Part shown: positions 3,683 through 17,635 of the stretch, piece after piece
Numbering within the stretch: position 1 is the stretch's first letter
How the letters are laid out: each line of letters opens with the position of its first letter
Assembly (NCBI RefSeq): GCF_024753565.1
Contig: NZ_JANTPT010000001.1
Location: 1,445,969 to 1,509,968, forward strand
Origin: Mechercharimyces sp. CAU 1602
Lineage (GTDB): Bacteria; Bacillota; Bacilli; Thermoactinomycetales; JANTPT01
Reading direction: 5' to 3'
DNA: 64,000 bases
Notes under the pieces: generated by a model
What the model was told of the DNA's origin: nothing
Databases searched by the model: none
The model's input: the letters and a program-made list of their open reading frames with translations, nothing else
Position numbers and translations under genes: made by a program

Positions 3683-3763
3683 ACGCGTCACCTCGTCTCA
3701 CCCAATAAATTCTCTATCTCTACCTTTTTTCCTGCCACAAACGCTTCTCTCAGCCGATTCGTA

Positions 3764-3790
3764 CAAAAAAATAAAAGGGTGGCACCCCTT
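3764..3790 (-). terminator. Weak terminator at the end of radC
   Basis: A short stem (AAG/CTT plus GGGT/ACCC with a bulged C) is followed on the minus strand by TTATTTTTTT. It overlaps the radC stop codon and would partly separate radC from minCD. Confidence 0.45.
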
Positions 3791-4493
3791 ATGAGGATAA
3801 TATCCCTTTTTCTTTCATACTATAATAAGTTTGATCTCCAATAACCACATGGTCCAACAAGGGTATTCCCAATACCTCCCCTGCCTCCGCCAAGCGGTGT
3901 GTAATCTGAATATCCTCGCGACTGGGAGTGGGATCACCACTAGGATGATTATGCAAACAGATCACAGCTGCTACACCGCGGCGTATCCCTTCTCGAAAAA
4001 CTTCACGCGGGTGCACAATGGATGCATTTAATGTTCCTACGAAAATGGTCTTCTTTCCCAATATCTGATGCTTGGTATCTAGTAACAAACAGACGAAATG
4101 CTCCTGCTTAAGATACCTCATCTCTTCCATCACATAATCTGCCGCATCGTGTGGGCAGCGAATTTTATAACGCTCTTCCGGTTGAATACGTGCAATGCGA
4201 CGACCCAACTCAACACCGGCTAAAAGCTGAACTGCTTTAGCTGGACCAATCCCATGAATCCCTATCAGTTCATCTAGCGTCATCTCTGCCAATCCCCGAA
4301 TTCCTCCCGTTTGCACCAACACTCGATCCGCCAGACTCAGCACAGATTCATTTGTTGTGCCGGTACGTAAGAGAATCGCAATCAAGTCCGCATGGGAGGC
4401 TTGACTCGTTCCTATTGCTAAGATACGCTCACGCGGACGTTCTTCCATTGGGAGATCACGCACCATGATCGGATCGTGTTCATACACTGACAA
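3789..4493 (-). CDS. radC: RadC family JAMM-domain protein
   Basis: RadC/YsxA family, 234 residues. An N-terminal helix-hairpin-helix region (IHGIGPAKAVQLLAG, about 80-95) precedes the JAB1/MPN domain whose metal motif HNHPSGDPTPSREDI is intact. The cellular role is unclear; the old link to DNA repair is not well supported. The longest reading starts at TTG, 4 bases after AAGGAGG; a GTG two codons later or an ATG at 4466 are alternatives. In Bacillus, maf lies upstream and mreBCD downstream; neither is present here. Confidence 0.93.
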   Translation of the reverse strand: MSVYEHDPIMVRDLPMEERPRERILAIGTSQASHADLIAILLRTGTTNESVLSLADRVLVQTGGIRGLAEMTLDELIGIHGIGPAKAVQLLAGVELGRRIARIQPEERYKIRCPHDAADYVMEEMRYLKQEHFVCLLLDTKHQILGKKTIFVGTLNASIVHPREVFREGIRRGVAAVICLHNHPSGDPTPSREDIQITHRLAEAGEVLGIPLLDHVVIGDQTYYSMKEKGILSS

Positions 4494-4571
4494 TGCTCCT
4501 CCTTGAAGGCCCTCTAGGTTCCAGTCGTAGGTGGGTGTTCCTTAAGTTGTGCGGCTCCCATGACCACGAAA

Positions 4572-5048
4572 TTATTTGACACTCCCCACGCATGTATGCG
4601 GGGGATTCTTGGAAGCTCCCGTCTAGTAATAGGATCGACTCCAAGCTTAGACGGTCTGCCCGACCGCAGTTAATCGCAGTCCTTCTTTCAAAATGTTCAG
4701 GGAGGCGTTAATGTCTCGGTCATGATGAGCGCGACATTCTGGACAAGTCCACTCCCTTACATTGAGGTTCTTCACCTCTTTGTTTCGGTAACCACAGGAA
4801 GAGCATAGCTGACTCGAAGGATAGGATTTCCCCACCTTCACAACGCTTCTCCCATACCACTTGGCTTGATACCCGAGCAGGGTGACAGTCGATCCGTTTG
4901 CTTTTTGAAGTAGCGGGAAAAGGCATCCGCTAGGTTCTTAAGGGATCTTTGCAGAAAGGTTGAATCCACTTCCCTTAGCCATTCCAACTCTTTTTTCAAT
5001 TGCGTCAATTGACGCGAGCAGGCGGGATAGGAAAGCCCCTTTTGCCAC
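4572..5048 (-). mobile_element. Decayed IS200/IS605-family element (tnpB-only type) with right end
   Basis: The left side keeps a typical IS605-group right end: the hairpin CCCCACGCATGTATGCGGGG at 4576-4596 next to TTTGACACT. Inside is a tnpB relic (see 4647-5048). The segment 5051-5293 on the same strand carries sequence like the upstream flank of such elements (CTTTAGCTGTGGGGATGAAAG) and an 80-codon open frame that I do not regard as a protein. No tnpA is visible. The element fills the gap between spoIIB and radC. Exact ends are uncertain. Confidence 0.75.
4647..5048 (-). pseudogene. tnpB: tnpB (IS605 OrfB) pseudogene with internal deletion
   Basis: The 5' part reads WQKGLSYPACSRQLTQLKKE, then [19 protein letters not shown] and AFSRYFKK, matching the N-terminal domain of TnpB after its first 20-25 residues. 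After a frameshift the frame jumps to [15 protein letters not shown], then the zinc ribbon (CSSCGY with [17 protein letters not shown]) and the C-terminus. Roughly 200 or more residues between these blocks are missing, including the first two acidic residues of the RuvC core, so it cannot encode an active nuclease. A stop codon lies in frame just upstream of the first Trp. Confidence 0.85.
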
Positions 5049-5294
5049 TATTATATACGGGGTGGGTCGGACTTGCGAGAGGGATGAATCCTCCCTTGTC
5101 TGACGCTCGCTTTCATCCCCACAGCTAAAGCCAGAGGTTTTCCTGCTCGCAAAGATATAAAGGTTCTCACAACATCTACAACGAATAGATCATTTTTATG
5201 TATGCTAGATGCTCCATTCATGTAGATGAGTAGAAAATGAGCTTCTAGCGTCATTTTATCAATTTCCATCGTGTGAAACAAGCAACTTACCACA

Positions 5295-6359
5295 TTACTT
5301 CACAGAGCTGACAAATTGATTATAAGCAATCGCATACCGTAATAAACCCTCTTGCATCTGCCATAAGATTGCCTCACTGGGCGATTTTTTTAATACAAAA
5401 GCGGACTGAACCGCTTGATCCAATGCTTGTGTCATCGTCTTCATATACTCCGTCTGTTCCTCATTTAATGCCTTAAGAGTATCTTCTTGTTGTTGGATCA
5501 GAGATTGATAACCCTTTTGTAACTTCTCTTCTGCTAATTTGCTCGCAACCGCTTCCTCTCTCCCCCCCATCCCAGCTACGGTAACCTCTTCTAACATCGT
5601 AAACAATTCAATTCCAGTAAGGAGCACCGGCTCTACTTTTTGTGTCAACTCTTTCGTAGCAGAGCCTTTCAAAGATAAATCCTTTAGATAAACATCGACT
5701 TCATCTTTCTGATAATATGCTGAAAGTTTTAGCGCATCATCACGCTTCACTGAAACCCCCAGATAGATACGATATGGTTTTTGATCCGTCATCACCGCTG
5801 CCCGTCCACGACTGCGATAATCTTCTACTTTCTCCTGCGCTCCCGCAACTTCATTAAATGACCCCGCCTGTAATAGCGTCACTTGAAAAGTAGGGAGTGA
5901 GGCCATGGCTCCCCCCGCCTCTTTCTTATCCGTTGTTATATTCTTAGGCTCATTTTGCAAGTGAGCATCGATACTCTGAGATGAGGAAGAGGAAGAGTCA
6001 GTAAAAAAAAGAACCAAAATGGAATAACCTAATACTACCCCCAACAAAATAGCACTCACTACAGCGAGCAGTAACGTAACAAACGGACGTTGTGTCACTG
6101 CTTGTTTCTTGGGATACGAAAGTGAGTGTCGTGGCCCTCCCCACTCTACACTATCCGCCTCCTCAGTTTGTTGCTGATATACCAATGGAAACGGCGGTTT
6201 CTTTTGCTTTGAAACGGATGAAGGAGATTTCTTTACATCTCTTTTATCATTATCTATTCTCTTCACTATTTTTGGGGATGGTGTTTGAATCGGTCGTCTC
6301 TCTCTTTCCTTCTGTTCCCGTTTTTTCTTCGTGCCAACTGTTACTCTTGGTTGAGCCAT
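5295..6359 (-). CDS. spoIIB: SpoIIB-like sporulation protein with SPOR domain
   Basis: 354-residue bitopic membrane protein. A very basic cytoplasmic N-terminus (about 1-92) precedes one membrane span (TLLLAVVSAILLGVVLGYSI, about 95-114), a Ser-rich linker and a SPOR-type domain (about 155-232: FQVTLLQAGSFNEVAGAQEK, YRIYLGVSVKRDDALKL), then a helical C-terminal region. SpoIIB localises to the sporulation septum and helps engulfment; SPOR domains bind denuded glycan. Identity rests on architecture and position downstream of comC. The upstream terminator at 6426-6456 implies its own promoter. Confidence 0.8.
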   Translation of the reverse strand: MAQPRVTVGTKKKREQKERERRPIQTPSPKIVKRIDNDKRDVKKSPSSVSKQKKPPFPLVYQQQTEEADSVEWGGPRHSLSYPKKQAVTQRPFVTLLLAVVSAILLGVVLGYSILVLFFTDSSSSSSQSIDAHLQNEPKNITTDKKEAGGAMASLPTFQVTLLQAGSFNEVAGAQEKVEDYRSRGRAAVMTDQKPYRIYLGVSVKRDDALKLSAYYQKDEVDVYLKDLSLKGSATKELTQKVEPVLLTGIELFTMLEEVTVAGMGGREEAVASKLAEEKLQKGYQSLIQQQEDTLKALNEEQTEYMKTMTQALDQAVQSAFVLKKSPSEAILWQMQEGLLRYAIAYNQFVSSVK

Positions 6360-6425
6360 TTGTTCCTCTCTCCCCTTCTATCAGCTATTCTCTATTACTA
6401 TATGATTTAATAGAGGAGCTAGAAC

Positions 6426-6456
6426 CAAAAAAAAGAAGCTGTACCTTGGGTACAGC
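6426..6456 (-). terminator. Intrinsic terminator of the pilMNO operon
   Basis: A perfect 8-bp stem GCTGTACC/GGTACAGC with a 3-base loop is followed on the minus strand by TTCTTTTTTTT. It lies just after pilO and before spoIIB. Confidence 0.9.
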
Positions 6457-6459
6457 CCC

Positions 6460-7320
6460 CTAGTCTTCATCTTTTTCATCTGTCAAATCCTCTTTTTCCT
6501 CGGTAGCAGACACATCAAGGTCAGATGAAGACACATCTTTCTCTTTTTTCTCTTTCTTATCCTCATCTCTTTCTATCTGCTTTTCTTTCTCCTCTACCTC
6601 AATCTTTTTTCCCGCTTCCGTCTCAATCTCCTGCAATTCTAACTTAGGTAGATCAAGTAATTGATCATCTTTGTACACATAAAAAGTGAGGCGAATCCGC
6701 ATGCTTCCATGACCTTCTTCTTCACTGGATACAAGATAATCCCAACCTCTTACCGTTACAAGACGATCCATAGAATAATGTAGTTGCTGAAAAAGATCAT
6801 CTAGCTCTTCCTCATCCGCCTCTATAAACATATCTGCCCATAGCGCCTTCATCCCCTTGGGTAATAGAGGGAGACGAATGAGATCCTCTGTCCTTTTGTC
6901 ACCCTTTTCTTTTGCTTCTTGTGCAGAAAAACGCATCTCTTCTAGCTCTTCTGGAGAATCTGCAAACCGAACACCTGTCATCGTCACACCAGCTGCTGCT
7001 GTTCGCTGCTCTAACTCCACCAAGAAGTAAGATACTTGCTCCTCTAAGGGCACCTGAGTTTGTAAGCGTTCCAATTCGCTTTCCCCTAACTTTTGCGGCG
7101 CATCGCTATAGCTAGCTGACAACACCTCTTGGTGGGTTTGAATGAAACGACTCCTCTTGTGATAATTATCCTTAGCTTGATCAAGCACCATTCGTTGTTC
7201 ATATAAGAAAAAGAGGGATACTCCTAGCACAACAAGCGTACTAAAGAAAAAAAAGCAGAATAAGAATCCACTAGACTTCCACCAAAGTGGATGTCGATTA
7301 CGCCAGCGCTTCATCATCAT
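6460..7320 (-). CDS. pilO: PilO-like pilus alignment protein with acidic tail
   Basis: 286 residues with a short basic N-terminus, one membrane span (FLFCFFFFSTLVVLGVSLFF, about 19-38), a coiled-coil segment and an alpha/beta domain (about 95-215) with PilO-like layout. In type IV pilus systems PilM, PilN and PilO form the inner alignment complex. The last 55 residues are an unusual Lys/Glu/Asp-rich tail. It overlaps pilN by 4 bases. Identification rests on size, topology and position after pilN; similarity to known PilO is weak. Confidence 0.65.
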   Translation of the reverse strand: MMMKRWRNRHPLWWKSSGFLFCFFFFSTLVVLGVSLFFLYEQRMVLDQAKDNYHKRSRFIQTHQEVLSASYSDAPQKLGESELERLQTQVPLEEQVSYFLVELEQRTAAAGVTMTGVRFADSPEELEEMRFSAQEAKEKGDKRTEDLIRLPLLPKGMKALWADMFIEADEEELDDLFQQLHYSMDRLVTVRGWDYLVSSEEEGHGSMRIRLTFYVYKDDQLLDLPKLELQEIETEAGKKIEVEEKEKQIERDEDKKEKKEKDVSSSDLDVSATEEKEDLTDEKDED

Positions 7321-7907
7321 TCACCCTCCCCCTCTGTCGATACTCCCTGAAGCTCATCGATCAAAGGTTGAAAACGAAAGTGGAAACGTACAATTTTCAC
7401 ATCTTCTGGATCTAATTTTAGATGTTTGTACACTTCTGCTGACTCAACTGCCTCAAGAGAGAAAGATGTCACAGTATTATTTAACTTCATCTTCTCTGTA
7501 AAAGAAGCGGCATCCGAATAGGAATGAAAAGCAGCCCATCCTTTCAATTCATTCTCCACAACCTGCAGCTGAAAGAGATTTGCTCCTGATGGAAGGGCAG
7601 AATCAATCAATTCAAGACCTTCTGTCCAATCTATGCGCTCTTTCATCAATTGCTCTACTCGCTCACCATAGAGATACGAAGGATCACTGGTAATCATCTC
7701 TTCATCATTGACGATCTCTCGCACAACTTTATAGTCAGCTTCGATCACTTTATTCTCCGCCTCTACTTCTTGTATAGCTACCATTTGTTTATAATAAATC
7801 CAGCCGCTCAAGACAAGAATCGTAGCTAGGAAGAGGACGATGAGGCTGATCCATAACTTATACCAACGCCGCGCCAAAGGAATAGGGGGCATTAGATCGA
7901 TCCTCAT
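7317..7907 (-). CDS. pilN: PilN-like fimbrial assembly protein
   Basis: The start MRIDLMPPIPLARR resembles the PilN signature (xxINLLP near the N-terminus) that binds the groove of PilM. One membrane span follows (about 19-38, WISLIVLFLATILVLSGWIYY), then a coiled coil and a ferredoxin-like periplasmic-type domain; 196 residues. GGAGGA precedes the ATG, which overlaps the pilM stop by one base (TAATG). It lies between pilM and pilO, so the three are probably co-translated. Confidence 0.75.
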   Translation of the reverse strand: MRIDLMPPIPLARRWYKLWISLIVLFLATILVLSGWIYYKQMVAIQEVEAENKVIEADYKVVREIVNDEEMITSDPSYLYGERVEQLMKERIDWTEGLELIDSALPSGANLFQLQVVENELKGWAAFHSYSDAASFTEKMKLNNTVTSFSLEAVESAEVYKHLKLDPEDVKIVRFHFRFQPLIDELQGVSTEGEGE

Positions 7908-8908
7908 TATCGCTTCCTCCTTCCCAGCGCCAATCCCAGCGGGACCGACAGTGTTGGTCCGATCCACTGCGAGGCTTTCTTCGCTACTCTTTTACTCATC
8001 ATATTTTCTGGTGACGGACTGACCGATACCTTTGTATCCACCTGTTCATTCAGGTATTGTTGCAGTAGAGAAAAATCAATTCCTTCTCCGCTAAGAACCC
8101 ATTCCATTATGTCTATACTATGATTCGCCTTCCACCCATCCACTATCTCTTCCAGTTGAATCAATAATCTTTCTCCATAAACTGAGATCTCTTCCTCATC
8201 TCTTACCACAGGTTTAAGCGAATCCATTTGTGGACGATAAATCTGGTCATCGTCCATGCTCACCGAAAGAGGGATTGACTTCCATTCGATCAAATTACCC
8301 TGTATGACCAGACTTATTTCTACTCTAGTCTTAGCGATCTGCAGTAACATGACATTTTCCGCCAGTTGCATATGTAGATCTAACCAGCGATAAAGACCTA
8401 GTGGCGCTAACTGCACACCTACTGGTTCTAAACCTAACCAGCCCGCCACTTCTACCCACTGCTCTACTTTCTCTTTCGATGTCATTACAAAGATCGCTTC
8501 CTGCTCACCACCATCTTCCCATACATGTCCAATCCGATGAAAATCAAAGGTAGGGTTATCAAAAGGAAGAGATAATTCTGGTAATATTTCATTTTGGAAC
8601 CATTTACGCAAACGTCGGTTTCGCAACTCTGGAATGCTTTGCTTCACTATATATACATCCGAACAATTAAGAGAAAGCACTGCTTTGCGCGTGCGAAACT
8701 TTTTCTCTTTCATCCCTTCACGCATTGTCTGAATGAATGCTTCACGTTCTTGCAAATCGCCCCCATCTATCCATGTAGATGGAAATGGGTGTGCCATATA
8801 CTCGATCATCCGAGATTTTAAGCGTTTTCTCTTTACTTTCACTTCTACAATTTTAACCAACGAATCTGAAAGCTCCATCGCTAGCATGTTGCGTGTAAAC
8901 CACCCCAT
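7907..8908 (-). CDS. pilM: PilM-like actin-fold pilus assembly protein
   Basis: 333-residue cytoplasmic protein of the PilM/FtsA-like actin fold. The N-terminus MGWFTRNMLAMELSDSLVKI fits the first phosphate loop, and RKAVLSLNCSDVYIVKQSIP with LRKWFQNEILPELSLPF matches PilM family blocks. It should bind the N-terminal peptide of PilN at the inner face of the membrane. ATG at 8908 has AAGGAG at good spacing; an ATG two codons earlier is too close to it. First gene of pilMNO, just after the prepilin peptidase gene. Confidence 0.8.
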   Translation of the reverse strand: MGWFTRNMLAMELSDSLVKIVEVKVKRKRLKSRMIEYMAHPFPSTWIDGGDLQEREAFIQTMREGMKEKKFRTRKAVLSLNCSDVYIVKQSIPELRNRRLRKWFQNEILPELSLPFDNPTFDFHRIGHVWEDGGEQEAIFVMTSKEKVEQWVEVAGWLGLEPVGVQLAPLGLYRWLDLHMQLAENVMLLQIAKTRVEISLVIQGNLIEWKSIPLSVSMDDDQIYRPQMDSLKPVVRDEEEISVYGERLLIQLEEIVDGWKANHSIDIMEWVLSGEGIDFSLLQQYLNEQVDTKVSVSPSPENMMSKRVAKKASQWIGPTLSVPLGLALGRRKR

Positions 8909-8947
8909 GCTCATACTCCTTCTTTCGTAAAATTATCTTTCATTCTA

Positions 8948-9679
8948 TTACCCCACTAATAAGCGCCAATAAGCTTGCAACAAAAACTCTCCCCATATAT
9001 AAGCAAGTAGAGAGCCTGCGGCGAGATGGGGGGCAAAAGGAATAGTGCGGGGAGCTTCGTGCACGCTCCCTATCATCAGATAAATACTCCACAACCCTCC
9101 GCATATTACAGCAGTCATTATCGCTACAGTGATAGATGGCCATCCAATAGCAAACCCTGCTACCCCCATCATTTTCGCATCCCCCCATCCCATTCCTCCA
9201 TCACTGAGTACAATAATGATCACAATGATGCAGAACCCTGCAAGCATTCCTAGTAGATAGGATCCCCAGGTAGATTCGGGATAGAGAAGACGAACACTTA
9301 TTAATACTAACAACCCACTCGCTGTAAGCCGGTTAGGAATGAAACCCGACCAACAATCCGTACATACACATGTCATTAAAAAAGTAACAAAGCATAATGA
9401 GATCACTAATTCATAAATGGAGGTTGTATAATAAGAGACCATCATACTACTACCCACCATTAGTATCATGATCATGCCTCCACTGGGAGATCGAACATGT
9501 ACACACTTTGCACACCGGGTCGATACGAGCAAATGTTTACTCTCCCCCAAACTAACATTACAGTGACGGCAGACCCCTCCATACTCTCGTGATTGTAACA
9601 TAATGAATGAAAGAGATGGAAGAAAAACTCCCACAATCACTCCCCATAGTAAACCGAAGTATAAAGTGGTGATAGACAC
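8948..9679 (-). CDS. comC: Prepilin peptidase / late competence protein ComC
   Basis: Type IV leader peptidase (A24) that cleaves and methylates pilin-like proteins. Visible are the two Cys pairs (CRHC, CAKC), the first catalytic Asp in DCWSGFIPN and the second in GMGWGDAKMM, with about eight membrane spans. The N-terminal GSFLNV block is degenerate here (GVFLPSL). I use GTG at 9679, preceded by GAAGGGGTG, giving 243 residues (Bacillus ComC 248); an ATG at 9697 has no clear Shine-Dalgarno. It precedes pilMNO. Confidence 0.88.
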   Translation of the reverse strand: MSITTLYFGLLWGVIVGVFLPSLSFIMLQSREYGGVCRHCNVSLGESKHLLVSTRCAKCVHVRSPSGGMIMILMVGSSMMVSYYTTSIYELVISLCFVTFLMTCVCTDCWSGFIPNRLTASGLLVLISVRLLYPESTWGSYLLGMLAGFCIIVIIIVLSDGGMGWGDAKMMGVAGFAIGWPSITVAIMTAVICGGLWSIYLMIGSVHEAPRTIPFAPHLAAGSLLAYIWGEFLLQAYWRLLVG

Positions 9680-9883
9680 AATCACACCCCTTCGCATCCA
9701 TTTTGGTTCATACCATACGTTGGAAACTGTTGTGTCATCCTCTCTCTCTACTTTACTAAAAAAGGGTGTGCAGGAAAATAGGACACGAAAAATAAATATT
9801 TTAACCTCATATCTTTACTGACGTATACCTCCCTCCAAAAGTTGCAAATTCCTATATTCATTTATTCGTGTCTAATGCAAGAG

Positions 9884-9926
9884 TGTGATCATTGCGATAT
9901 AATCAACCCATATCGCAATGATCACA
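9884..9926. repeat. 17-bp perfect inverted repeat upstream of the PanE-like gene
   Basis: Arms TGTGATCATTGCGATAT (9884-9900) and its exact reverse complement (9910-9926) are separated by 9 bases. It ends 31 bases before the PanE-like start codon and has no T-run, so it is more likely an operator or an mRNA structure than a terminator. Confidence 0.85.
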
Positions 9927-9957
9927 TTCGTTATAAAGGAGTGTAGAGACTAAACCT

Positions 9958-10986
9958 ATGAATAAAAATGTTGTTATCGTGGGAGCAGGTGCTATCGGAG
10001 GTACATTAGCAGCTTGGATCAGTCCACACCATCCCTCTACCTATGTATTAGACCGCGGAGTTGTGGCAGAAGCAATCAAAACAAATGGTATCACCACTTA
10101 TCTGGGTGGAAAAGAAGCTGAAAAACAGACCGTACGGGTAAACAGCATCGATGATCTTTCACAGATAGAAGCGATTGATATTCTCATCATCGCCGTCAAA
10201 ACCTACAGCTTGGAGGCTGTCTGTCAAGCTATTAGAGAAAAAATCGAAGGGGAGCCTATTGTAGTTGCCCTCCAAAATGGGATAGAAAATCAGGACATTC
10301 TTCCACGCTACTTTAAGCGCATCCTATACGGAGTAATCGGTTATAACGCATGGTTAGATCAGCCCGGCACCATCGGCTATCAGCATAAGGGACCTTTCAT
10401 TCTCGGTACCCCTACCAATGACCTACGACTCGAGCTGAATGAAGTCTCTACCCTTTTTAATCAAGGTGTCGAAACGATCATTACCACACATTTACAAGAT
10501 GCTGTCCACTCTAAAATCATACTCAACTTAACCAATTCCTTCACTACCCTAGTTGGCCATAAACATAGAGAAATATCTGATTTTAAACTTTTTAAGAAAA
10601 TACTAACAAACATTCTCGTTGAAGGAATTGAAATTGTTCAAGCGAATGGCTACAAAGAATGTCAGCTTGGCGATATGCCTTCGTGGCGAAAGATGAAGGC
10701 AACCGTACAACTTCCACAAATATTGACTAACGGAATCTTTCGTAGGAACATGAAAAAAATGGTTATTAGTAGTATGGGACAAGATATCCTCGTGCGTGGC
10801 AACTCAGATTCCGAGTTAGAGTCTATCAATGGCTACATGATTCAACTCGCCGATCGCAAACAGTTGGCGGCTCCCTATAATCGCGCCATCTATGCACTTT
10901 GTAAAGAAGAGTTTAGTAAGCCTTCCTTTAAACCACTGAGCGAAGAACAAGTATGGGAGTATCTCCAAAGCTTTCAGAAGGCATAA
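9958..10986 (+). CDS. Ketopantoate reductase family protein (PanE/ApbA-like)
   Basis: 342 residues with the N-terminal dinucleotide-binding motif GAGAIGG (residues 9-15), the VALQNGIEN block (about 104-112) and a helical C-terminal domain, as in ketopantoate reductases, which use NADPH to make pantoate for coenzyme A synthesis. No panB, panC or panD is nearby, and the family contains many paralogues with other substrates, so the exact reaction is not certain. The AAGGAG upstream is 16 bases away, unusually far, and a long inverted repeat lies just before it. Confidence 0.8.
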   Translation: MNKNVVIVGAGAIGGTLAAWISPHHPSTYVLDRGVVAEAIKTNGITTYLGGKEAEKQTVRVNSIDDLSQIEAIDILIIAVKTYSLEAVCQAIREKIEGEPIVVALQNGIENQDILPRYFKRILYGVIGYNAWLDQPGTIGYQHKGPFILGTPTNDLRLELNEVSTLFNQGVETIITTHLQDAVHSKIILNLTNSFTTLVGHKHREISDFKLFKKILTNILVEGIEIVQANGYKECQLGDMPSWRKMKATVQLPQILTNGIFRRNMKKMVISSMGQDILVRGNSDSELESINGYMIQLADRKQLAAPYNRAIYALCKEEFSKPSFKPLSEEQVWEYLQSFQKA

Positions 10987-11027
10987 GAAAAATAGAAACC
11001 GCTTTCATTAAGATGAGCACCTCTTCA

Positions 11028-11080
11028 AAGAGAGACCAATCAGCCCCACATCACTAGCTGGTTGGTCTCTCTTCTTTTGG
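11028..11080. terminator. Terminator between PanE-like gene and ArsR gene
   Basis: A 17-bp stem (11028-11044 with 11057-11073, one G-T pair) is followed on the plus strand by CTTCTTTT. It sits between two converging genes. Confidence 0.8.
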
Positions 11081-11770
11081 TCAGTTGGTTTCAATATGAA
11101 AGAAGCGCTGCAACTCTATCTTCCCTCTCTCTGTCACCACTACTGCTCGAGTGTTTTCACATTTAACCAACCACTTTTGTGAAAAGCAGTGTTCAGCTAT
11201 TGCCCATCCGAACCATCCTGCCATATGTTCACGACGTTCACTCCAATCCAAGCACGGCTTTAAAAATATACGCCTGCTCTTGTGCCCTTCTTCCCACTGG
11301 ATCCCGAGCTGTAAACACCACTTTGTTCCCGCCGGGGTCAAAACGTACTCTTCTTCCCTTCTCTCTATCCTTTTTAGACCTAACAGAGAATCGAAAATCT
11401 TCACTCCTAATTCACCTGCAAGATGGTCATAACATGTCCTGGCATAGCAAATTTTTTTCATTTTGTCCGATTGATGCAAGGAGCGGATTTCTACAGGTGG
11501 TGCAATCGTCCCCAATTTCTCTAACACTTCTGCAATCTCAATTCCCGCGAGAGAATAATAGCGATGCCTCCCCCTCTTTTCCACTCTCAATAATTTACCT
11601 TCAACCAATTTAGATAAATGAGAGCTCATTGTAGGATGTGAAACGCGCGCATGATAGGCCAGTTGACTGGCTGGTAATGATCTCCCGTCTAATAAACAAT
11701 CCAAGATGATAGCTCGTGTCGGTTCAGCAATTAATTTTGCTATATAAGCAATATCAGGATATACATTCAT
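11081..11770 (-). CDS. ArsR-family winged-helix regulator
   Basis: 229 residues. The N-terminal winged helix (about 8-75: ADPTR-like AEPTRAIILDCLLDGR, SQLAYHARVSHPTMSSHLSKL, KRGRHRYYSLA) is ArsR-type. The C-terminal part carries the block CYARTCYDHLAGELGV, common in a subgroup of ArsR-like regulators, whose ligand is unknown to me. It is transcribed away from the DinB gene at 11840 with about 70 bases between, a typical regulator/target arrangement; a short dyad ATCAACTTGAT lies between them. Confidence 0.85.
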   Translation of the reverse strand: MNVYPDIAYIAKLIAEPTRAIILDCLLDGRSLPASQLAYHARVSHPTMSSHLSKLVEGKLLRVEKRGRHRYYSLAGIEIAEVLEKLGTIAPPVEIRSLHQSDKMKKICYARTCYDHLAGELGVKIFDSLLGLKRIERREEEYVLTPAGTKWCLQLGIQWEEGHKSRRIFLKPCLDWSERREHMAGWFGWAIAEHCFSQKWLVKCENTRAVVVTERGKIELQRFFHIETN

Positions 11771-11788
11771 ATTTCGATGATACCCTAA

Positions 11789-11799
11789 ATCAACTTGAT
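11789..11799. promoter_or_regulatory. Candidate operator between arsR-type gene and dinB-type gene
   Basis: ATCAACTTGAT is an 11-base perfect dyad in the short divergent gap, next to TACAAT (a possible -10 for the plus-strand gene). It could be the ArsR-family protein's own binding site; nothing beyond symmetry and position supports it. Confidence 0.3.
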
Positions 11800-11839
11800 C
11801 TACAATTTACTTATAGCCACTTAACAAAGGAGAATGAGT

Positions 11840-12313
11840 ATGAATGCTATCGATGTATGTATACTGAATCTGGAGGAAACGAGAAGGAGATCACACAAAC
11901 TATGGCGCTCGTTACCTGATGAATGGCTTGGCTGGAGACCTGATCAAGGTGCCTTCTCTTTTGGAGAGATGATCCGTCATGTATGGCGAGCCAGTTATAA
12001 TTATCATCGTATCTTGCTTCATGGCGGCTCACCTATAAATGCGGGCGACCCTCCCTTTGATCAGCAGCCGATTCAATCTGTCGAGGGAGAAATCGCCCTG
12101 TCACAACCTTATTTTCAAGAATTTCTTACCTATGTTCGTTCACTCTCTGAAAGCGACCTAAACAGTATCCTAATCAAACGTGAAGACGCAGGTTATGAAC
12201 GTCACCTCGGCGATATGATATTACGTATTGCTTATCATGATTCTGTTCATACAGGACAGTTTTTACAATACCTCCGGATGGCTGGTTTAGAGCGCCCCCG
12301 CATTTGGGATTAA
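11840..12313 (+). CDS. DinB/YfiT family protein
   Basis: 157-residue four-helix bundle protein of the DinB family, many of which are thiol (bacillithiol) transferases using a metal held by three His. Candidate ligands are His in IRHVWRASYNYH (about residue 50) and the pair in AYHDSVHTGQF (about 135-139). I choose the second ATG, 7 bases from AAAGGAG; the first is too close. It diverges from the ArsR-type gene, its likely regulator. Substrate unknown. Confidence 0.85.
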   Translation: MNAIDVCILNLEETRRRSHKLWRSLPDEWLGWRPDQGAFSFGEMIRHVWRASYNYHRILLHGGSPINAGDPPFDQQPIQSVEGEIALSQPYFQEFLTYVRSLSESDLNSILIKREDAGYERHLGDMILRIAYHDSVHTGQFLQYLRMAGLERPRIWD

Positions 12314-12317
12314 TATT

Positions 12318-12353
12318 AGCGTGGGAGAGTTTAATTCTAAACCCTCTCACGCT
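12318..12353. repeat. Hairpin between converging genes, no U-tract
   Basis: A 16-bp stem (12318-12333 with 12338-12353; one A-C mismatch, one G-T pair) with the 4-base loop ATTC directly abuts the stop codon of the next gene. Neither strand has a T-run after the stem. Confidence 0.8.
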
Positions 12354-13124
12354 TTACATGCTTGTTAGATAATCCCATAAGCCTTTTCCAATAAAAATGA
12401 CTGTTACCGAGACAAACAACGCTTTCACATATGCCGCACCCTTTCGAATGGCAAGATTGGAACCAATCGCTGCTCCTATCACCATCGCTATCCCCATGGG
12501 AACGCCATAACCGAAATGAACCGAATCAAAGTAGATAAAAGCGATCAACGCTGCCAGGTTACTACCAAAGTTTAAAACCTTTGCATTCCCCGCCGCTTCT
12601 ACAAAGTCAAACCCGAGTAACAAAAAAGAAAAAATCAAAAATGAACCTGTTCCGGCCCCCAAAAAACCATCATAAAATCCGATTATCATTGCTGCCAAGC
12701 CGATAAAGATGGCTAGTTTCCTCGTCATCACTGTAAAGGTAGATTCACTCCCCCAGCGCTTGCTCATCACTGTATAAATAGTGACACCTACTAGCAGAAC
12801 CAAAATTAATGGCTTTAAAACTGCAGAAGAGATTAATTGAACAACATAAACACCGACTGCAGAGCCGACCACAGCCAGTGGAAAAAGCATAAGAACCAAT
12901 TTTTTATTAATCTTTCCTGATTTTAAGAATGAGAGGGTACTCGTTAATGCCCCCATCGTACTCGCTAACTTATTGGTTCCTAAAGCAAGAGATGGCGGCA
13001 GACCGGTAAAAAGTAAAGCGGGAATAGACACGAGCCCACCACCCCCCACGACCGAATCCACAAAGGCGGCTAAAAACCCTGCGGCAATAAGAAACAGTAA
13101 AATCTCCAGGCTCATATTTTCCAT
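12354..13124 (-). CDS. TauE/SafE family membrane transporter
   Basis: 256-residue integral membrane protein of the COG0730 family (YfcA/TauE/SafE), implicated in export of sulfite or organosulfur anions. The N-terminal DSVVGGGGLVSIPALLFTGLPP motif and the internally repeated GFYDGFLGAGTGSF block are characteristic, with about eight spans. It is a single gene facing away from ecsAB, with a 16-bp inverted repeat in the shared upstream gap. The substrate cannot be read from sequence. Confidence 0.88.
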   Translation of the reverse strand: MENMSLEILLFLIAAGFLAAFVDSVVGGGGLVSIPALLFTGLPPSLALGTNKLASTMGALTSTLSFLKSGKINKKLVLMLFPLAVVGSAVGVYVVQLISSAVLKPLILVLLVGVTIYTVMSKRWGSESTFTVMTRKLAIFIGLAAMIIGFYDGFLGAGTGSFLIFSFLLLGFDFVEAAGNAKVLNFGSNLAALIAFIYFDSVHFGYGVPMGIAMVIGAAIGSNLAIRKGAAYVKALFVSVTVIFIGKGLWDYLTSM

Positions 13125-13190
13125 TTATGCTGCTTCCTCTCTAGTTGAAATCCAAGTTTGTTGTATTCTCTCAGTTAGTCTAAATATGGT

Positions 13191-13234
13191 TAGATTATAA
13201 CCTAGTTGCTGTTTGCCCACTAGGTTATAATCTA
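13191..13234. repeat. 16-bp perfect inverted repeat in the tauE/ecsA divergent gap
   Basis: TAGATTATAACCTAGT (13191-13206) and its exact reverse complement (13219-13234) flank 12 bases. It lies 67-110 bases upstream of the TauE-like start and upstream of the putative ecsA promoter. No T-run follows on either strand. Confidence 0.85.
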
Positions 13235-13249
13235 TGATTTGAACCTCCC

Positions 13250-13279
13250 TAGACAAGCCCTCCTTTCATCGCATACAAT
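13250..13279 (+). promoter_or_regulatory. Possible promoter of ecsAB
   Basis: TAGACA, an 18-base spacer and TACAAT lie about 50 bases upstream of ecsA. The -35 is only a partial match. Confidence 0.45.
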
Positions 13280-13329
13280 AAACACAGTATGGAATCTGTT
13301 CCCACACAGAGAGAGAAAGGGTGCATCTG

Positions 13330-14061
13330 ATGTTACACGTAAATCAATTGGTAGGAGGCTACCAATTACATAAGCCTGTAATTCATGACATTTCATTTAC
13401 AGTACGTCCCCATGAAATGGTCGGAATCATCGGTCTTAATGGTGCCGGTAAAAGTACAACGATCAAACACATATTGGGACTTCTCAATCCTTCTTCTGGA
13501 GAAATAACCCTCGACAATGTGGCGCTTGGAGAAGATCCTGTACGATATCGCTCCAGCATGGCCTATATACCTGAAACGCCCCAACTATATGACGAGCTCA
13601 CCTTGATGGAACACTTGGAACTAACAGCTCAAGCATATCAAATAGATCAACAAGCTTTTGCTGAGCGTATCCCTGCTCTCCTTGAAACCTTTCGCATGAC
13701 CAAGCAAGCCAAATGGTTCCCAGGAGTTTTTTCAAAAGGCATGCAGCAAAAAGTTATGATCTTGTGTGCATTTCTTGTACAACCTTCACTCCTAATTGCC
13801 GATGAACCTTTTGTCGGACTAGATCCCCTGGCGACACAAGCTCTGCTCGATCATTTTGTCGCGATGAAAGAAGCCGGAGCAGGAATTCTTCTTTCCACTC
13901 ACATCCTTTCTACAGCAGAAAAATATTGTGATCGCTTCGTTCTCCTGCATGAGGGTCGGGTTCAGTTGCATGGAACATTAGCTCAAATGCAAGCTCAAGC
14001 CGGCCGAACTAATGCAAGCTTAGACGAGCTCTTTCGCATGGTCACACAGGGTGAGGGGTGA
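13330..14061 (+). CDS. ecsA: ABC transporter ATP-binding protein EcsA
   Basis: 243 residues with Walker A GLNGAGKST, the signature FSKGMQQKV, Walker B LLIADEPF and the H-loop STH. Blocks such as YRSSMAYIPETPQLYDELTLMEHLELTAQAY and KWFPGVFSKGM-type segments follow Bacillus EcsA closely. In Bacillus, EcsAB affects secretion, competence and sporulation through the intramembrane protease RasP. I use ATG 13330, 8 bases from AAAGGG; an upstream GTG is too close to it. ecsB follows immediately. Confidence 0.92.
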   Translation: MLHVNQLVGGYQLHKPVIHDISFTVRPHEMVGIIGLNGAGKSTTIKHILGLLNPSSGEITLDNVALGEDPVRYRSSMAYIPETPQLYDELTLMEHLELTAQAYQIDQQAFAERIPALLETFRMTKQAKWFPGVFSKGMQQKVMILCAFLVQPSLLIADEPFVGLDPLATQALLDHFVAMKEAGAGILLSTHILSTAEKYCDRFVLLHEGRVQLHGTLAQMQAQAGRTNASLDELFRMVTQGEG

Positions 14062-14069
14062 ACGCAACC

Positions 14070-15284
14070 ATGAATATTAACGCTCTTTACCGCCAACGAC
14101 TCCTCCAAGCTTGGAATAAGCGGCTTGGCTACTTTCGCTTGATCGCACAAGGACTCGGCGTCCTTCTCTTAGGTGCTATGCTACTGTTCACCCTACCTGA
14201 AAAACATCCACTCCTTTATCTACCGGACGTTTTTCCACCTTTCTTAACCGTACCGCTCTTCCTTACACTGCTTTATACTTTATGGTTAAGCTATGTTCCT
14301 ATCCGTACTTTCCTGCTCCAACCAGATCTTACTTTCTTATTGCCTGCAGAAGATCGTATGCGTCACTACTACCGTTCCAGTATTACTTATAGTGCAACCA
14401 TACATATGATTGTAACGGTTGTCATCAGCTTATTGCTCTCCCCACTTTACCTACAATACATCAGCGATACCATAAATATGTGGTTTGTTCTCTTATGGAT
14501 CTTGCTCTTAAAAGGGTGGAATTTTTATCAGTATGGAGAAGACTTACAACACCTTCATTCTCCATGGTTTCGTCCACACAGAGTGGTTATCAATCTACTC
14601 TTTACCGCCCTTCTTTTTTATCAAATCTATCTAGGTCTCATTGTTTCGATTCCGCTACTCGCCCTCACCATTTGGCTTGAGCTGCGAAATCGCAAAAAAC
14701 GTTTTCCCTGGCGTACATTGTTACAAAAAGAGGAGAAGATGACAGCTCGTAACTATAGTCTTGCTGCTCTCTTTGTTGACATCCCGCACGTACATGCAAA
14801 AGTAAAGCACCGAAAATGGCTGATTGCCCTTATCGGATGGCTACCTCTATTTAAACGACCTTTTCTATATCTCTACCTACGTACGTTTTTCCGTACTAAT
14901 GAACTATGGGACATGTATCTACGTCTTGTTATTGTGACCGGTCTACTCTTGTGGTGGTTAGATCATCCGTATTTAGTAATTACGATCTATCTCCTCAGTC
15001 TGTATGCGACTAGCTTACAACTTCCTACCGTCATTCGTCCTTATCGAGAACAGATCATGATCCACCTCTACCCTGTACTAACAACGGAAAAGCGCAACAG
15101 TTTTGCATGGTTTTCCTATCTCGCACTCGGTGGGCAAGCACTCGTGTTAGCTCTTTTTCAATTGTTCGAAGGCAAGCTACCTCTTCTGCACGTAGCTGCC
15201 CTTGGTGGCATTGGACTCGCGTTAAGCTATGTACTCAGTTTTCACTGGTTGCCTAAACGTCATCTACAAGATGCTCGACCCTAA
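14070..15284 (+). CDS. ecsB: ABC transporter membrane protein EcsB
   Basis: 404-residue polytopic membrane protein, partner of EcsA. The N-terminus MNINALYRQRLLQAWNKRLGY and several clusters of hydrophobic spans match the EcsB layout. ATG 14070 is 8 bases from GAGGGGTGA, which overlaps the ecsA stop; a GTG at 14058 overlapping the ecsA stop is an alternative. No ecsC follows; an SDR gene comes next. Confidence 0.88.
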   Translation: MNINALYRQRLLQAWNKRLGYFRLIAQGLGVLLLGAMLLFTLPEKHPLLYLPDVFPPFLTVPLFLTLLYTLWLSYVPIRTFLLQPDLTFLLPAEDRMRHYYRSSITYSATIHMIVTVVISLLLSPLYLQYISDTINMWFVLLWILLLKGWNFYQYGEDLQHLHSPWFRPHRVVINLLFTALLFYQIYLGLIVSIPLLALTIWLELRNRKKRFPWRTLLQKEEKMTARNYSLAALFVDIPHVHAKVKHRKWLIALIGWLPLFKRPFLYLYLRTFFRTNELWDMYLRLVIVTGLLLWWLDHPYLVITIYLLSLYATSLQLPTVIRPYREQIMIHLYPVLTTEKRNSFAWFSYLALGGQALVLALFQLFEGKLPLLHVAALGGIGLALSYVLSFHWLPKRHLQDARP

Positions 15285-15340
15285 CACATCCTTGTCTCCT
15301 CTTCTCTCTTTTTTAGCTAGCAGCTTTAGAAAGGATGGTT

Positions 15341-16186
15341 ATGATGAGTAAAGAAATTGCACTGATTACGGGATCGTCTAGCGGATTTGGTCTTCTTACC
15401 GCTTTATCACTAGCCAAAGAAGGCTATCAGGTCATTGCCACCATGCGTGCTTTAGAAAAAAAGACTGCCTTAGAAAAAGCGATCGAAAAGGAGAAGCTCA
15501 CTTCGATCGAGATCCTTCCACTGGATGTAACCGATCATGATTCCATCTCTACGACGATTCAATCTGTCCTCGAACGATATGGACAGATTGATCTGCTCAT
15601 CAATAACGCTGGTTATGCTGCCAATGGATACGTAGAGGATCTATCATTAACTACTTTTCGCGAACAATTTGAGACAAACTTTTTTGGACTCATCGCTGTT
15701 ACACAAGCAGTCCTTCCTTCCATGCGCCAACGCCAACAGGGACGAATTATCAATATGAGTAGTGTGAGCGGTCGCATCGCCTTCCCTGCTCTCAGCCCTT
15801 ATTCTTCCTCTAAATATGCTGTCGAAGGGTTTAGCGAATCACTCCGTCTTGAAATGCTCCCTTATGGGGTCTATGTCTCGTTGATTGAGCCAGGTTCATA
15901 TCAAACTTCTATCTGGGATAAAAGCTTTGCCCAAACGGACCAAGGTAAAAGAAATAGCAACTATCCCAAAGAGATGGAAATGATTATGAATGAAGCGATT
16001 CAAATCAAACAACACGCTGCTGACCCTCAAGATGTGGCTGACCTTATCGTCCGAGTTGCCCAGCACCCTAATCCTAAGCTACGCTATCCTATCGGAAAAG
16101 AGGCAAAATCCACCCTGCGCCTAAAATCCCTCCTCCCTTGGGCATGGATCGAACGCTATGTGATAAAAAAATATCTGAAAATGTAA
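15341..16186 (+). CDS. Short-chain dehydrogenase/reductase
   Basis: 281 residues, classical SDR fold: cofactor motif TGSSSGFG (about residues 10-17), NNAG (about 88-91), the catalytic Ser in NMSSVSG and the YSSSK pair (about 155-159). The absence of an Asp after the second strand does not settle NAD versus NADP. Substrate unknown. Start chosen for spacing to AAAGG. Followed by a strong bidirectional terminator. Confidence 0.88.
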   Translation: MMSKEIALITGSSSGFGLLTALSLAKEGYQVIATMRALEKKTALEKAIEKEKLTSIEILPLDVTDHDSISTTIQSVLERYGQIDLLINNAGYAANGYVEDLSLTTFREQFETNFFGLIAVTQAVLPSMRQRQQGRIINMSSVSGRIAFPALSPYSSSKYAVEGFSESLRLEMLPYGVYVSLIEPGSYQTSIWDKSFAQTDQGKRNSNYPKEMEMIMNEAIQIKQHAADPQDVADLIVRVAQHPNPKLRYPIGKEAKSTLRLKSLLPWAWIERYVIKKYLKM

Positions 16187-16201
16187 TACTACCTTGTAAA
16201 C

Positions 16202-16240
16202 AAAACCCCTAAATGGTTAAGACAACCATTTAGGGGTTTT
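16202..16240. terminator. Strong bidirectional terminator
   Basis: A perfect 17-bp stem (16202-16218 with 16224-16240) with a 5-base loop is bounded by A4 and T5 runs. It separates the converging SDR and murC genes. Confidence 0.95.
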
Positions 16241-16255
16241 TATCGCCTTCTATTA

Positions 16256-17635
16256 TTATGCTTCCCTTTTTTCCAATGCTGGCACGAGACTATGAGCCAA
16301 CTGCCAGATGTCTCCTGCTCCCATCGTCAGCACAAGATCATCTTGTCGTAACATCTCCAGCAAATATGCCTTCGCCTCTTCTTGCGTGTTACAAAATTGG
16401 ACATTTAGCTGTCCACTCTCTTTAACCATTTGTGTTAAACGCTCCGATGTAACGCCTTCGATTGGTTTCTCACCTGCTGGCGAGTAAATACTGGTAATAA
16501 CAACTTCATCCGCATCAGCAAAAGCCTCGCTAAACTCCTGCATCAACAAGTGTGTCCGTGAATAGCGTTGTGGTTGGAACACCGTAACGATCCGCTTGTT
16601 CATCGCCTTTACACCTTCAATTGTGGAACGGATTTCAGTCGGGTGATGAGCATAATCATCTACTACCATGATTCCGTTCACCTCACCGATCACTTGAAAG
16701 CGGCGCTTCGCACCACGAAAATGGGTAAGCGCATCTGCAATTTGTGCAAAAGATAAACCTACTTGTAAACAAGTGATTACTGCGGCTAAAGCATTAGAAA
16801 CATTATGATGACCCGGTACAAACAGATGGATTTCTCCTAGCACCTCCCCACGATACTGGATCTCAAACCGTACTTCCCGCTCCTGCGCACGAATATTGAT
16901 TGCACGGTAATCAGCCTCTGGATGCAGGCCATAGGTAATGACATTTGCATCCACCTCTTCCTTCATCTCGCGTAGATAGGGATCATCAACAGACAAAATA
17001 GCTGAGCCTTCGCTCTGAATTTGGGATAAGAATTGCTTATATGCTTGTTTCAGATTTTTAAAGTCACCATCGTAGTTTTCTAAATGATCCGGTTCGATAT
17101 TGGTCACAATACCTATGTAAGGAAAATACTCCAAGAATGTGCCATCACTTTCATCTGCTTCGGCCACAACATAAGGACTACTCCCTGCCTTAGCATTACC
17201 GTCTAACCCTACCACTTCTCCACCAATAATATAAGTGGGATCAGCCTCACCCAGCTCCATCACTTGGGCAATCATAGAAGAGGTCGTTGTCTTACCATGG
17301 GCACCTGCTACTGCTATTCCCTGTTTATCATTTAACAATAACGCCAACATCTCAGAGCGATGCATCACAGGAATCCCCCATTCACGAGCCGCCATCATCT
17401 CTACATTGTGCTCAGGAATACTGGAGGAATAAACTACCCGGTCTGCTCCCTCCACCCATTTTGCATCATGTTTATAATGTACTGTTGCGCCTCGTGCTGC
17501 CAAACTTTCCGTCAACTTATTTGCAGATAAGTCAGAGCCCGTCACAGGATGACCCATCTCTACCAATACACGGGCGATAGCACTCATGCCATAGCCACCT
17601 ATCCCAATAAAATGAATATGTTCGTTCGCTTTCAT
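16256..17635 (-). CDS. murC: UDP-N-acetylmuramate--L-alanine ligase
   Basis: Adds the first amino acid (L-Ala) to UDP-MurNAc in cytoplasmic peptidoglycan precursor synthesis. Visible are the N-terminal dinucleotide-type motif IGIGGYGMSA, the ATP-binding GAHGKTTTSSM, the EADESDGTF block and DDYAHHPTE. About 459 residues, the usual size. ATG 17635 is used; a GTG three codons upstream, closer to AAGGAAG, is possible. It lies 26 bases after folC on the same strand; in Bacillus murC is at another locus. Confidence 0.95.
   Translation of the reverse strand: MKANEHIHFIGIGGYGMSAIARVLVEMGHPVTGSDLSANKLTESLAARGATVHYKHDAKWVEGADRVVYSSSIPEHNVEMMAAREWGIPVMHRSEMLALLLNDKQGIAVAGAHGKTTTSSMIAQVMELGEADPTYIIGGEVVGLDGNAKAGSSPYVVAEADESDGTFLEYFPYIGIVTNIEPDHLENYDGDFKNLKQAYKQFLSQIQSEGSAILSVDDPYLREMKEEVDANVITYGLHPEADYRAINIRAQEREVRFEIQYRGEVLGEIHLFVPGHHNVSNALAAVITCLQVGLSFAQIADALTHFRGAKRRFQVIGEVNGIMVVDDYAHHPTEIRSTIEGVKAMNKRIVTVFQPQRYSRTHLLMQEFSEAFADADEVVITSIYSPAGEKPIEGVTSERLTQMVKESGQLNVQFCNTQEEAKAYLLEMLRQDDLVLTMGAGDIWQLAHSLVPALEKREA

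Follow-up and report, generated by a model that had tools for sequence, protein, structure and literature searches.

What would a pilus alignment subcomplex do in a bacterium that appears to have lost the motor, the platform and the pilins which it once served? The question is raised by a locus of Mechercharimyces sp. CAU 1602 (contig NZ_JANTPT010000001.1, positions 1,445,969 to 1,509,968; this whole stretch of 64,000 nucleotides is called the window), in which the genes pilM, pilN and pilO follow the prepilin peptidase gene comC. The three proteins (PilMNO) are best explained as a genuine alignment subcomplex of the type IVa pilus (T4aP), derived from a locus still present in other members of the class, and we lean, somewhat beyond an even judgement, to the view that they were inherited from a lost T4aP and now serve the ComG competence pilus. 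An earlier sequence-only reading had placed the trio between comC and spoIIB, closed by its own terminator, with no pilus motor, platform or pilin gene nearby. The gene calls, their order, the coordinates and the terminator all hold, and no such pilus gene lies near the trio in the window. The block is on the minus strand, with the operon order comC-pilM-pilN-pilO and a spoIIB-like gene downstream:

8948..9697, minus strand: comC, prepilin peptidase of 249 amino acids, first gene of the operon (Pfam Peptidase_A24, 2.3e-14)
7907..8914, minus strand: pilM, actin-like cytoplasmic protein of 335 amino acids (Pfam PilM_2, 8.8e-14; order profile against PDB)
7317..7907, minus strand: pilN, 196 amino acids, with the cytoplasmic motif MRIDLMPP, one membrane helix, a coiled coil and a predicted ferredoxin-like domain
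6460..7320, minus strand: pilO, 286 amino acids, with a membrane helix, a coiled coil, a predicted ferredoxin-like domain and a charged tail
6433..6461, minus strand: intrinsic terminator of the operon, a 13-pair stem with a 3-base loop and a T tail
5295..6359, minus strand: spoIIB-like gene, given as context, with a SPOR domain match (0.0068, below the Pfam cut-off) and named by its position after comC/pilO as in relatives

The likely start of pilN is the ATG at 7907, the mechanical open reading frame (ORF) beginning at 7967. Since pilM and pilN overlap in TAATG and pilN and pilO share four bases, translational coupling from pilM through pilO is likely. Comparison with relatives, whose genomes, loci and families are given below by G, L and f numbers, shows a ComC match directly adjoining PilM in 11 loci inside the order and 5 outside it; the gap between comC and pilM is 33 bases here. 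Terminator-like sites number nine in 5 kb, against 3.3 +/- 1.8 in shuffled sequence, and the one at the end of pilO has the most pairs.

Identification by profile is certain for PilM. It matches Pfam PF11104 (PilM_2) with 51.6 bits (8.8e-14) against a gathering score of 27, and TIGR01175 at 2.7e-16, although the 59.5 bits of the latter are below its cut-off of 133; a profile of the order's PilM proteins finds the PilM chains of PDB entries 3jc8, 2ych and 5eox at 5.3e-22 to 2.5e-12. Nucleotide binding of the PilM type uses DxG-type phosphate motifs. At the expected DIG-type sites the window protein has, by eye, LAMELSDS and LLQIAKTR, neither of which is of DxG type, and it is filed as a PilM with a degenerate site, its other PilM features being present. 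The degeneracy was considered as a sign of a new role and dropped, because seven class relatives outside the order, at least five of them with full pil loci next to the gene, likewise have a PilM in which no clear DIG is seen.

Neither PilN nor PilO of the window has a Pfam or NCBIfam match of its own kind. The identity of PilO is nevertheless well supported by profile and predicted fold. The order profile finds M. xanthus PilO (PDB 3jc8_Oa) at 2.3e-5, and the Pfam PilO family is matched by 8 of the 26 aligned members (best 1e-5), the window protein not among them. The structural model of PilO, built from six sequences and of low mean pLDDT (56.1), matches 3jc8_Oa in Foldseek at 2.5e-5 and P. 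aeruginosa PilO 2rjz_A in VIA (Z 11.5, root-mean-square deviation 2.4, 96 aligned). For PilN the support comes from fold, motif and position. The protein has a cytoplasmic peptide of the N-L-L-P type, one transmembrane helix and a domain modelled as alpha-beta-beta-alpha-beta-beta (mean pLDDT 63.9, low; six sequences). An N-L/F-M/L/I-P type motif lies near the PilN start in the aligned relatives, with N in at least 90% of the 26. In VIA the PilN model reaches Z 10.5 to XcpY (GspL) and Z 7.4 to T. thermophilus PilN 4bhq_B (root-mean-square deviation 2.2, 72 aligned), and its fold neighbours are GspL, PilO, GspM and PilN domains; the VIA lists include unrelated ferredoxin-like folds at Z 6-8, so that the fold match alone is no proof of PilN. 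Foldseek gave the model no PilN match at or under 0.001, the Pfam PilN profile weakly matches one of the 26 aligned members (0.0018) and not the window protein, and the order profile matches PilN of PDB (3jc8_Na) weakly, with E 0.23 over profile positions 1-141. The alignments A3 (PilN) and A4 (PilO) each hold 26 of 28 sequences, L049 and L051 being left out of the former and L049 and L065 of the latter. The profile check that the sequence-only reading had called for thus leaves PilM certain and PilO well supported, with PilN resting on fold, motif and position though weak in Pfam.

The genome as a whole is equally short of T4aP parts. Its assembly (2.93 Mb, 98% complete, 11 contigs) holds two T2SSE proteins, ComGA and TadA, and three T2SSF proteins, ComGB and two of a Tad cluster; these profile searches found no T4aP PilB, PilC or PilT, so neither the PilB extension ATPase nor the PilC platform by which a type IVa pilus is recognised was found in the genome. 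The genome search that had been suggested did find a complete comG operon, the seven genes comGA-GG at L007 5291-9446, comGG being named by position only. The genes owe their names to size, to gene order and, for ComGB-ComGF, to the best-fitting model. Their NCBIfam scores all remain below the cut-offs (ComGA 268/300, ComGB 189/240, ComGC 73.6/75, ComGD 34/70), and ComGA scores higher against the GspE and PilB models (439 and 431 bits), likewise below cut-off. With comC, comGA, comGB, comGC and comGD the genome has the genes by which a Com (ComM) pilus is recognised, and ComEC is present too. The Tad cluster (L008 4533-10814) encodes an Flp-like pilin, CpaB/CpaE-like proteins, TadA, the two T2SSF proteins and its own A24 peptidase. 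As type IV filament machines this organism has the complete comG operon and the Tad pilus, the latter with a peptidase of its own. Downstream of the Tad cluster in L008 (region 4533-17621) there are also two related membrane proteins and a lipoprotein that by eye looks VWA-like, for which NCBIfam gave no match at 1e-20.

A comparison across the class sets this pattern apart. In a sample of 299 genomes (thresholds PilM E <= 1e-6, PilC E <= 1e-45), PilM was found in 172 and PilC in 151, and all 151 PilC genomes also have PilM. PilM without PilC occurs in 20 genomes of the order and one other, G281, an assembly in 170 contigs; PilM accompanies its platform outside the order and persists without it inside, since those are the only cases. 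Outside the order PilM was kept in one genome of about 121 lacking PilC. None of the order's genomes in the sample, 27 among the matches listed, has PilC.

The order was read as Thermoactinomycetales, including Paenactinomyces guangxiensis, Lihuaxuella thermophila, Marinithermofilum abyssi and two Thermoflavimicrobium species. PilM is present in 28 of its 42 genomes, our own included; the Pfam model missed the PilM of G031 and G035, and a protein search found both. Five PilM-negative genomes (G003, G008, G012, G032, G041) give a partial Pfam match (20-24 bits, spanning at most model positions 126-237), which is read as another actin-fold protein because PilM-positive genomes, including our own, show it as a second match. 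No PilB- or PilC-like proteins (about 553-596 and about 400 amino acids, respectively, in other Bacilli) are among the matches listed for the 41 relatives. PilT-like matches occur in 15 of the 42 genomes (all five that were tested pass the cut-off; ten others are called by score, some also by position), and pilT stands directly before comC in ten. One orphan PilT-like ATPase lies at L040 7791-8870, like those of 14 other genomes of the order without PilB or PilC.

Six of seven class loci outside the order (L066-L072) read PilB-PilT-PilC-pilin-comC-pilM-pilN-pilO, extra genes separating comC from pilM in L071, and in four of the seven spoIIB comes next after the pil locus. In the loci of the order the PilB-, PilC- and pilin-like genes are gone. 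The order is monophyletic both in the PilM tree (support 0.98) and in the RpoB tree, where family f2 is at the base; within the order the PilM tree agrees partly with RpoB and splits f5 with weak support. ValS was tried as a species marker and found unusable, the order having two ValS types: G016 has a diverged ValS, G030 and G033 have two copies, and the ValS trees of the order are confused. The best explanation of these patterns is that PilB, PilC and the pilins were lost before Thermoactinomycetales diversified.

The remaining genes look maintained. The ratio of nonsynonymous to synonymous substitution rates (dN/dS) of pilMNO is 0.065-0.340 in 16 of 18 comparisons from six genome pairs, the other two being not computable; the values for pilN are less sharp, as several of the ORFs used for it run on upstream over pilM. 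PilMNO, and PilT in part of the order, are best explained as kept and under purifying selection. The trio stays together in 27 relative loci, our own counted, which come from five families, and it appears to be a separable, movable module: in f3 it lies beside nad genes and in part of f5 beside arg or other genes, while the old site reads ecsBA-(pilT)-comC-spoIIB without it (L203, L206, L210, L212). If f5 is a clade, as in the RpoB tree, there would have been two moves. In the PilM tree the relocated f5 group comes out beside f3, with neighbouring nodes of 0.45 and 0.35 (no useful support); a single move, or transfer between the f3 and f5 groups, may also account for it.

These loci bear on two earlier suggestions. 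The sequence-only reading had offered that an accessory insertion at 9.9-16.2 kb split the pilus genes. This fails: the missing genes are nowhere in the genome or in the order's listed matches, ecsA-ecsB (13321-15284, within the supposed insertion) sit between murC and comC in 13 relative loci, and the f2 loci L064 and L065 run folC-murC-comC-pilMNO-spoIIB with no genes between and no pilB or pilC. It had alternatively proposed a separate role linked to the competence pseudopilus or to SpoIIB. SpoIIB was rejected as the partner; since in f3 and part of f5 the relocated trio leaves comC-spoIIB behind, neither SpoIIB nor even the linkage to comC would be the reason for retention. The competence half of that proposal is the best supported reading.

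The strongest argument for the ComG pilus is one of elimination. All 27 PilM-positive relatives in the order have comGA-GG (E <= 0.05, own queries; comGA of G021 is cut by a contig end). In five PilM-positive genomes (G004, G026, G031, G033, G040) the T2SSF domain is matched only twice, the number expected of a single ComGB, and T2SSE also only twice, by ComGA and PilT; because of these counts ComG is the only filament machine seen there for PilMNO and PilT. ComGB appears to be the only platform (in G026 and G033 among the matches listed) and ComGA and PilT the only ATPases. On this reading PilMNO, and PilT where present, would have been kept to serve the other filament machine whose prepilins ComC processes, the ComG pilus. 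The arrangement of the subcomplex is taken over from T4aP: PilN and PilO would pair in the membrane as a heterodimer surrounding the ComGB platform, while PilM, held on the cytoplasmic side by the N-terminal peptide of PilN, would stabilise or position the ComGA ATPase, and PilT where present. The analysis shows the gene content, the homology, the common descent of PilM in the order, the selection, the occurrence of the intact trio at other sites and the lack of a second platform match in five genomes; a physical partnership with ComG and an effect on assembly or retraction are inferred. Whether Thermoactinomycetales have a hybrid DNA-uptake pilus, a ComG pilus on the T4aP base PilMNO with a PilT retraction ATPase in about one third of the order, we regard as evenly balanced. 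Thermoactinomyces vulgaris was reportedly found transformable decades ago.

Several observations weigh against service to the ComG pilus. PilM is lacking in 14 of the 42 genomes, two of which are 67-68% complete, and on the RpoB tree PilMNO must have been lost three times or more, in a clade of four genera (support 0.88), in G038 and in f4. All seven comG genes are present in 9 of the 12 near-complete PilM-negative genomes. The ComG pilus does not need PilMNO, and PilMNO is not essential, as at least three lineages lost it and mostly kept comG. In the order loci read, no comG genes adjoin PilMNO, and a scan for two-box ComK patterns (up to one mismatch per box) found no shared box upstream of comGA (38 genomes of the order and our own) and of our own comC. 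ComGA (362 amino acids) is without the N-terminal MshEN domain that the PilB of L067 has, a possible docking part. ComC and the peptidase of the Tad cluster are the A24 peptidases seen, in a genome not searched for further ones. In the window PilN the motif reads MRIDLMPP, with D in place of the nearly invariant N. According to a 2023 review, model species have ComG pili that function in the absence of PilMNO (PMC10191384).

A test of evolutionary rates after PilMNO loss likewise overlaps its controls. It used a topology fixed to RpoB, at most 30 genomes and distances relative to RpoB, with G012, G037 and G041 kept out of the ComG sets for broken, interrupted or cut operons. For clade A, measured as distances to f3 and our own genome relative to PilMNO-positive f5 genomes, the ratios were ComGB 1.13, ComGC 1.23, ComGD 1.31, ComGE 1.18, ComGF 1.42 and ComGG 1.14, compared with ComEC 1.03, ComGA 0.98, ComC 0.97 (1 genome), MurC 1.00, FolC 1.11, EcsA 1.25 and EcsB 1.18 in controls with 1-8 clade A genomes. 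For f4 against f6 they were ComGA 1.56, ComGB 1.52, ComGC 1.00, ComGD 1.37, ComGE 1.77, ComGF 1.85, ComGG 1.83, ComEC 1.63, FolC 1.40, ComC 1.39, MurC 1.28 and SpoIIB 1.17. The result leans the expected way for the minor pilins, for ComGF most, and is not decisive. Broken comG operons occur in 2 of the 12 near-complete PilM-negative genomes (G012, G037) and in none of the 28 PilM-positive ones, which are too few independent cases; comGG is undetected in the PilM-negative G038. In G037 (L112 1660-8004) comGB appears interrupted after about codon 12; among the ORFs behind the break are, by eye, a serine recombinase-like one of 504 amino acids, a repressor-like one and one of 811 amino acids, perhaps a prophage. 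In G012 (L089) there is a comGA fragment, comGB and most of comGC escaped detection, and a search of the genome gave no ComEC; its sisters G003 and G008 have both comG and ComEC.

Other readings of the trio have to be set beside service to ComG. It is unlikely, though worth weighing, that PilMNO forms a filament-less membrane scaffold, in which, in these filamentous bacteria, actin-like PilM with PilN and PilO would anchor something else, for instance a factor of polarity, division, the cell wall or sporulation. PilM belongs to the actin-like class, and against PilM_2 even MreB scores 28.6 bits. The window and part of the order have no mreBCD at the usual place, but mreB is there in the PilMNO genomes G001, G002, G006, G009, G013, G016, G023, G026 and G033, and no trade-off between the two is seen. 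That comG can do without PilMNO, given the losses in the order, also suits a scaffold. The relocated f3 trio has a PAS-SpoIIE phosphatase, a cell-wall hydrolase and an L,D-transpeptidase in its surroundings; these genes, however, are kilobases away and found in f3 only, part of f5 having arg genes beside the trio, and the spoIIB neighbourhood is broken in two groups.

We give little credence to the remaining explanations. Decay is one: PilMNO would be a functionless relic, its motor gone, the trio lost at least three times and pilO of L065 already split over two ORFs. The low dN/dS values (0.065-0.340), the trio's cohesion in the 27 loci of five families, its integrity as a unit at new sites and the rarity with which PilM is kept without PilC outside the order (1 of about 121) all make this improbable. 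That PilMNO works with the Tad (Flp) pilus is equally hard to accept even though our genome carries such a cluster at another place, for the cluster has its own peptidase, the sole PilM match of the genome is the window PilM, and the five PilMNO genomes with two T2SSF matches have too few for ComGB plus a Tad platform pair. It is very doubtful, too, that the trio belongs to a diverged T4aP with a PilB, a PilC and pilins that escaped the searches. All 58 near-complete genomes give matches to PF00437 and PF00482, the strongest of them in the other families of the class being PilB and PilC, and the five PilMNO genomes leave no T2SSE or T2SSF match unassigned, against which stand the near invisibility of PilN itself to Pfam and the fact that the absence of PilB and PilC from the order holds only among the matches listed.

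Service to ComG would be a variant of the known ComG pilus and not a new kind of machine. With the T4aP subcomplex of class relatives and of the M. xanthus, P. aeruginosa and T. thermophilus structures, the locus shares the same three proteins, their order and folds and the adjoining comC, but there is no T4aP-type PilB or PilC in our genome or among the matches listed for the order. The periplasmic domains of XcpY, PulL, PulM, EpsL and EpsM, the GspL/GspM proteins of the type II secretion system, match the PilN and PilO models. In GspL the counterparts of PilM and PilN are fused; here the two are separate, and the only GspE/GspF-type proteins of our genome are ComGA/ComGB and the Tad proteins. 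The comGA-GG operon, comC and ComEC are common to our genome and the Com (ComG) pilus of B. subtilis and streptococci, the difference being that here ComG occurs together with PilMNO, and in 15 of 42 genomes of the order with PilT. The 2023 review counts eight components in the Com pilus, with the MNOP proteins absent and not replaced, and raises the question why the Com pilus does without the extra membrane proteins, PilMNO among them, of other type IV filaments (PMC10191384). A 2019 survey reports PilMNOP homologues as lacking or very rare beside ComM and PilT as frequently lost (PMC6668835). The titles and abstract openings from part of the literature hits include none on PilMNO or PilT in Thermoactinomycetales or serving ComG, and PMC10790768 makes no mention of PilM, PilN or PilT; PMC7317962 names Thermoactinomycetaceae and comGA. 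A strict rule that MNO is absent wherever ComG-type pili are the only ones would not hold. Thermoactinomycetales, as an order where PilMNO, and partly PilT, outlived PilB and PilC and where ComG is apparently the sole machine left in five genomes, offer a natural setting for testing the review's question; if service to ComG is true, the "minimal" Com pilus is one end of a range and the genomes of the order are natural plus/minus tests of what PilMNO and PilT contribute.

Three further features of the window may be mentioned. Unlike in relatives such as G026 and G016, mreBCD is absent between minC and radC (3691-3789) and maf between radC and spoIIB (4493-5295), an absence that covers their usual place only, the rest of our genome not having been searched for them. 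MreB and Maf identity was confirmed in G026, and the same mreBCD gap is seen in G005, G010, G031, G034, G035 and G040. Finally, the gap between comC and panE holds a perfect inverted repeat (9885-9925) with arms of at least 16 bases, which may be an operator or a bidirectional stem.

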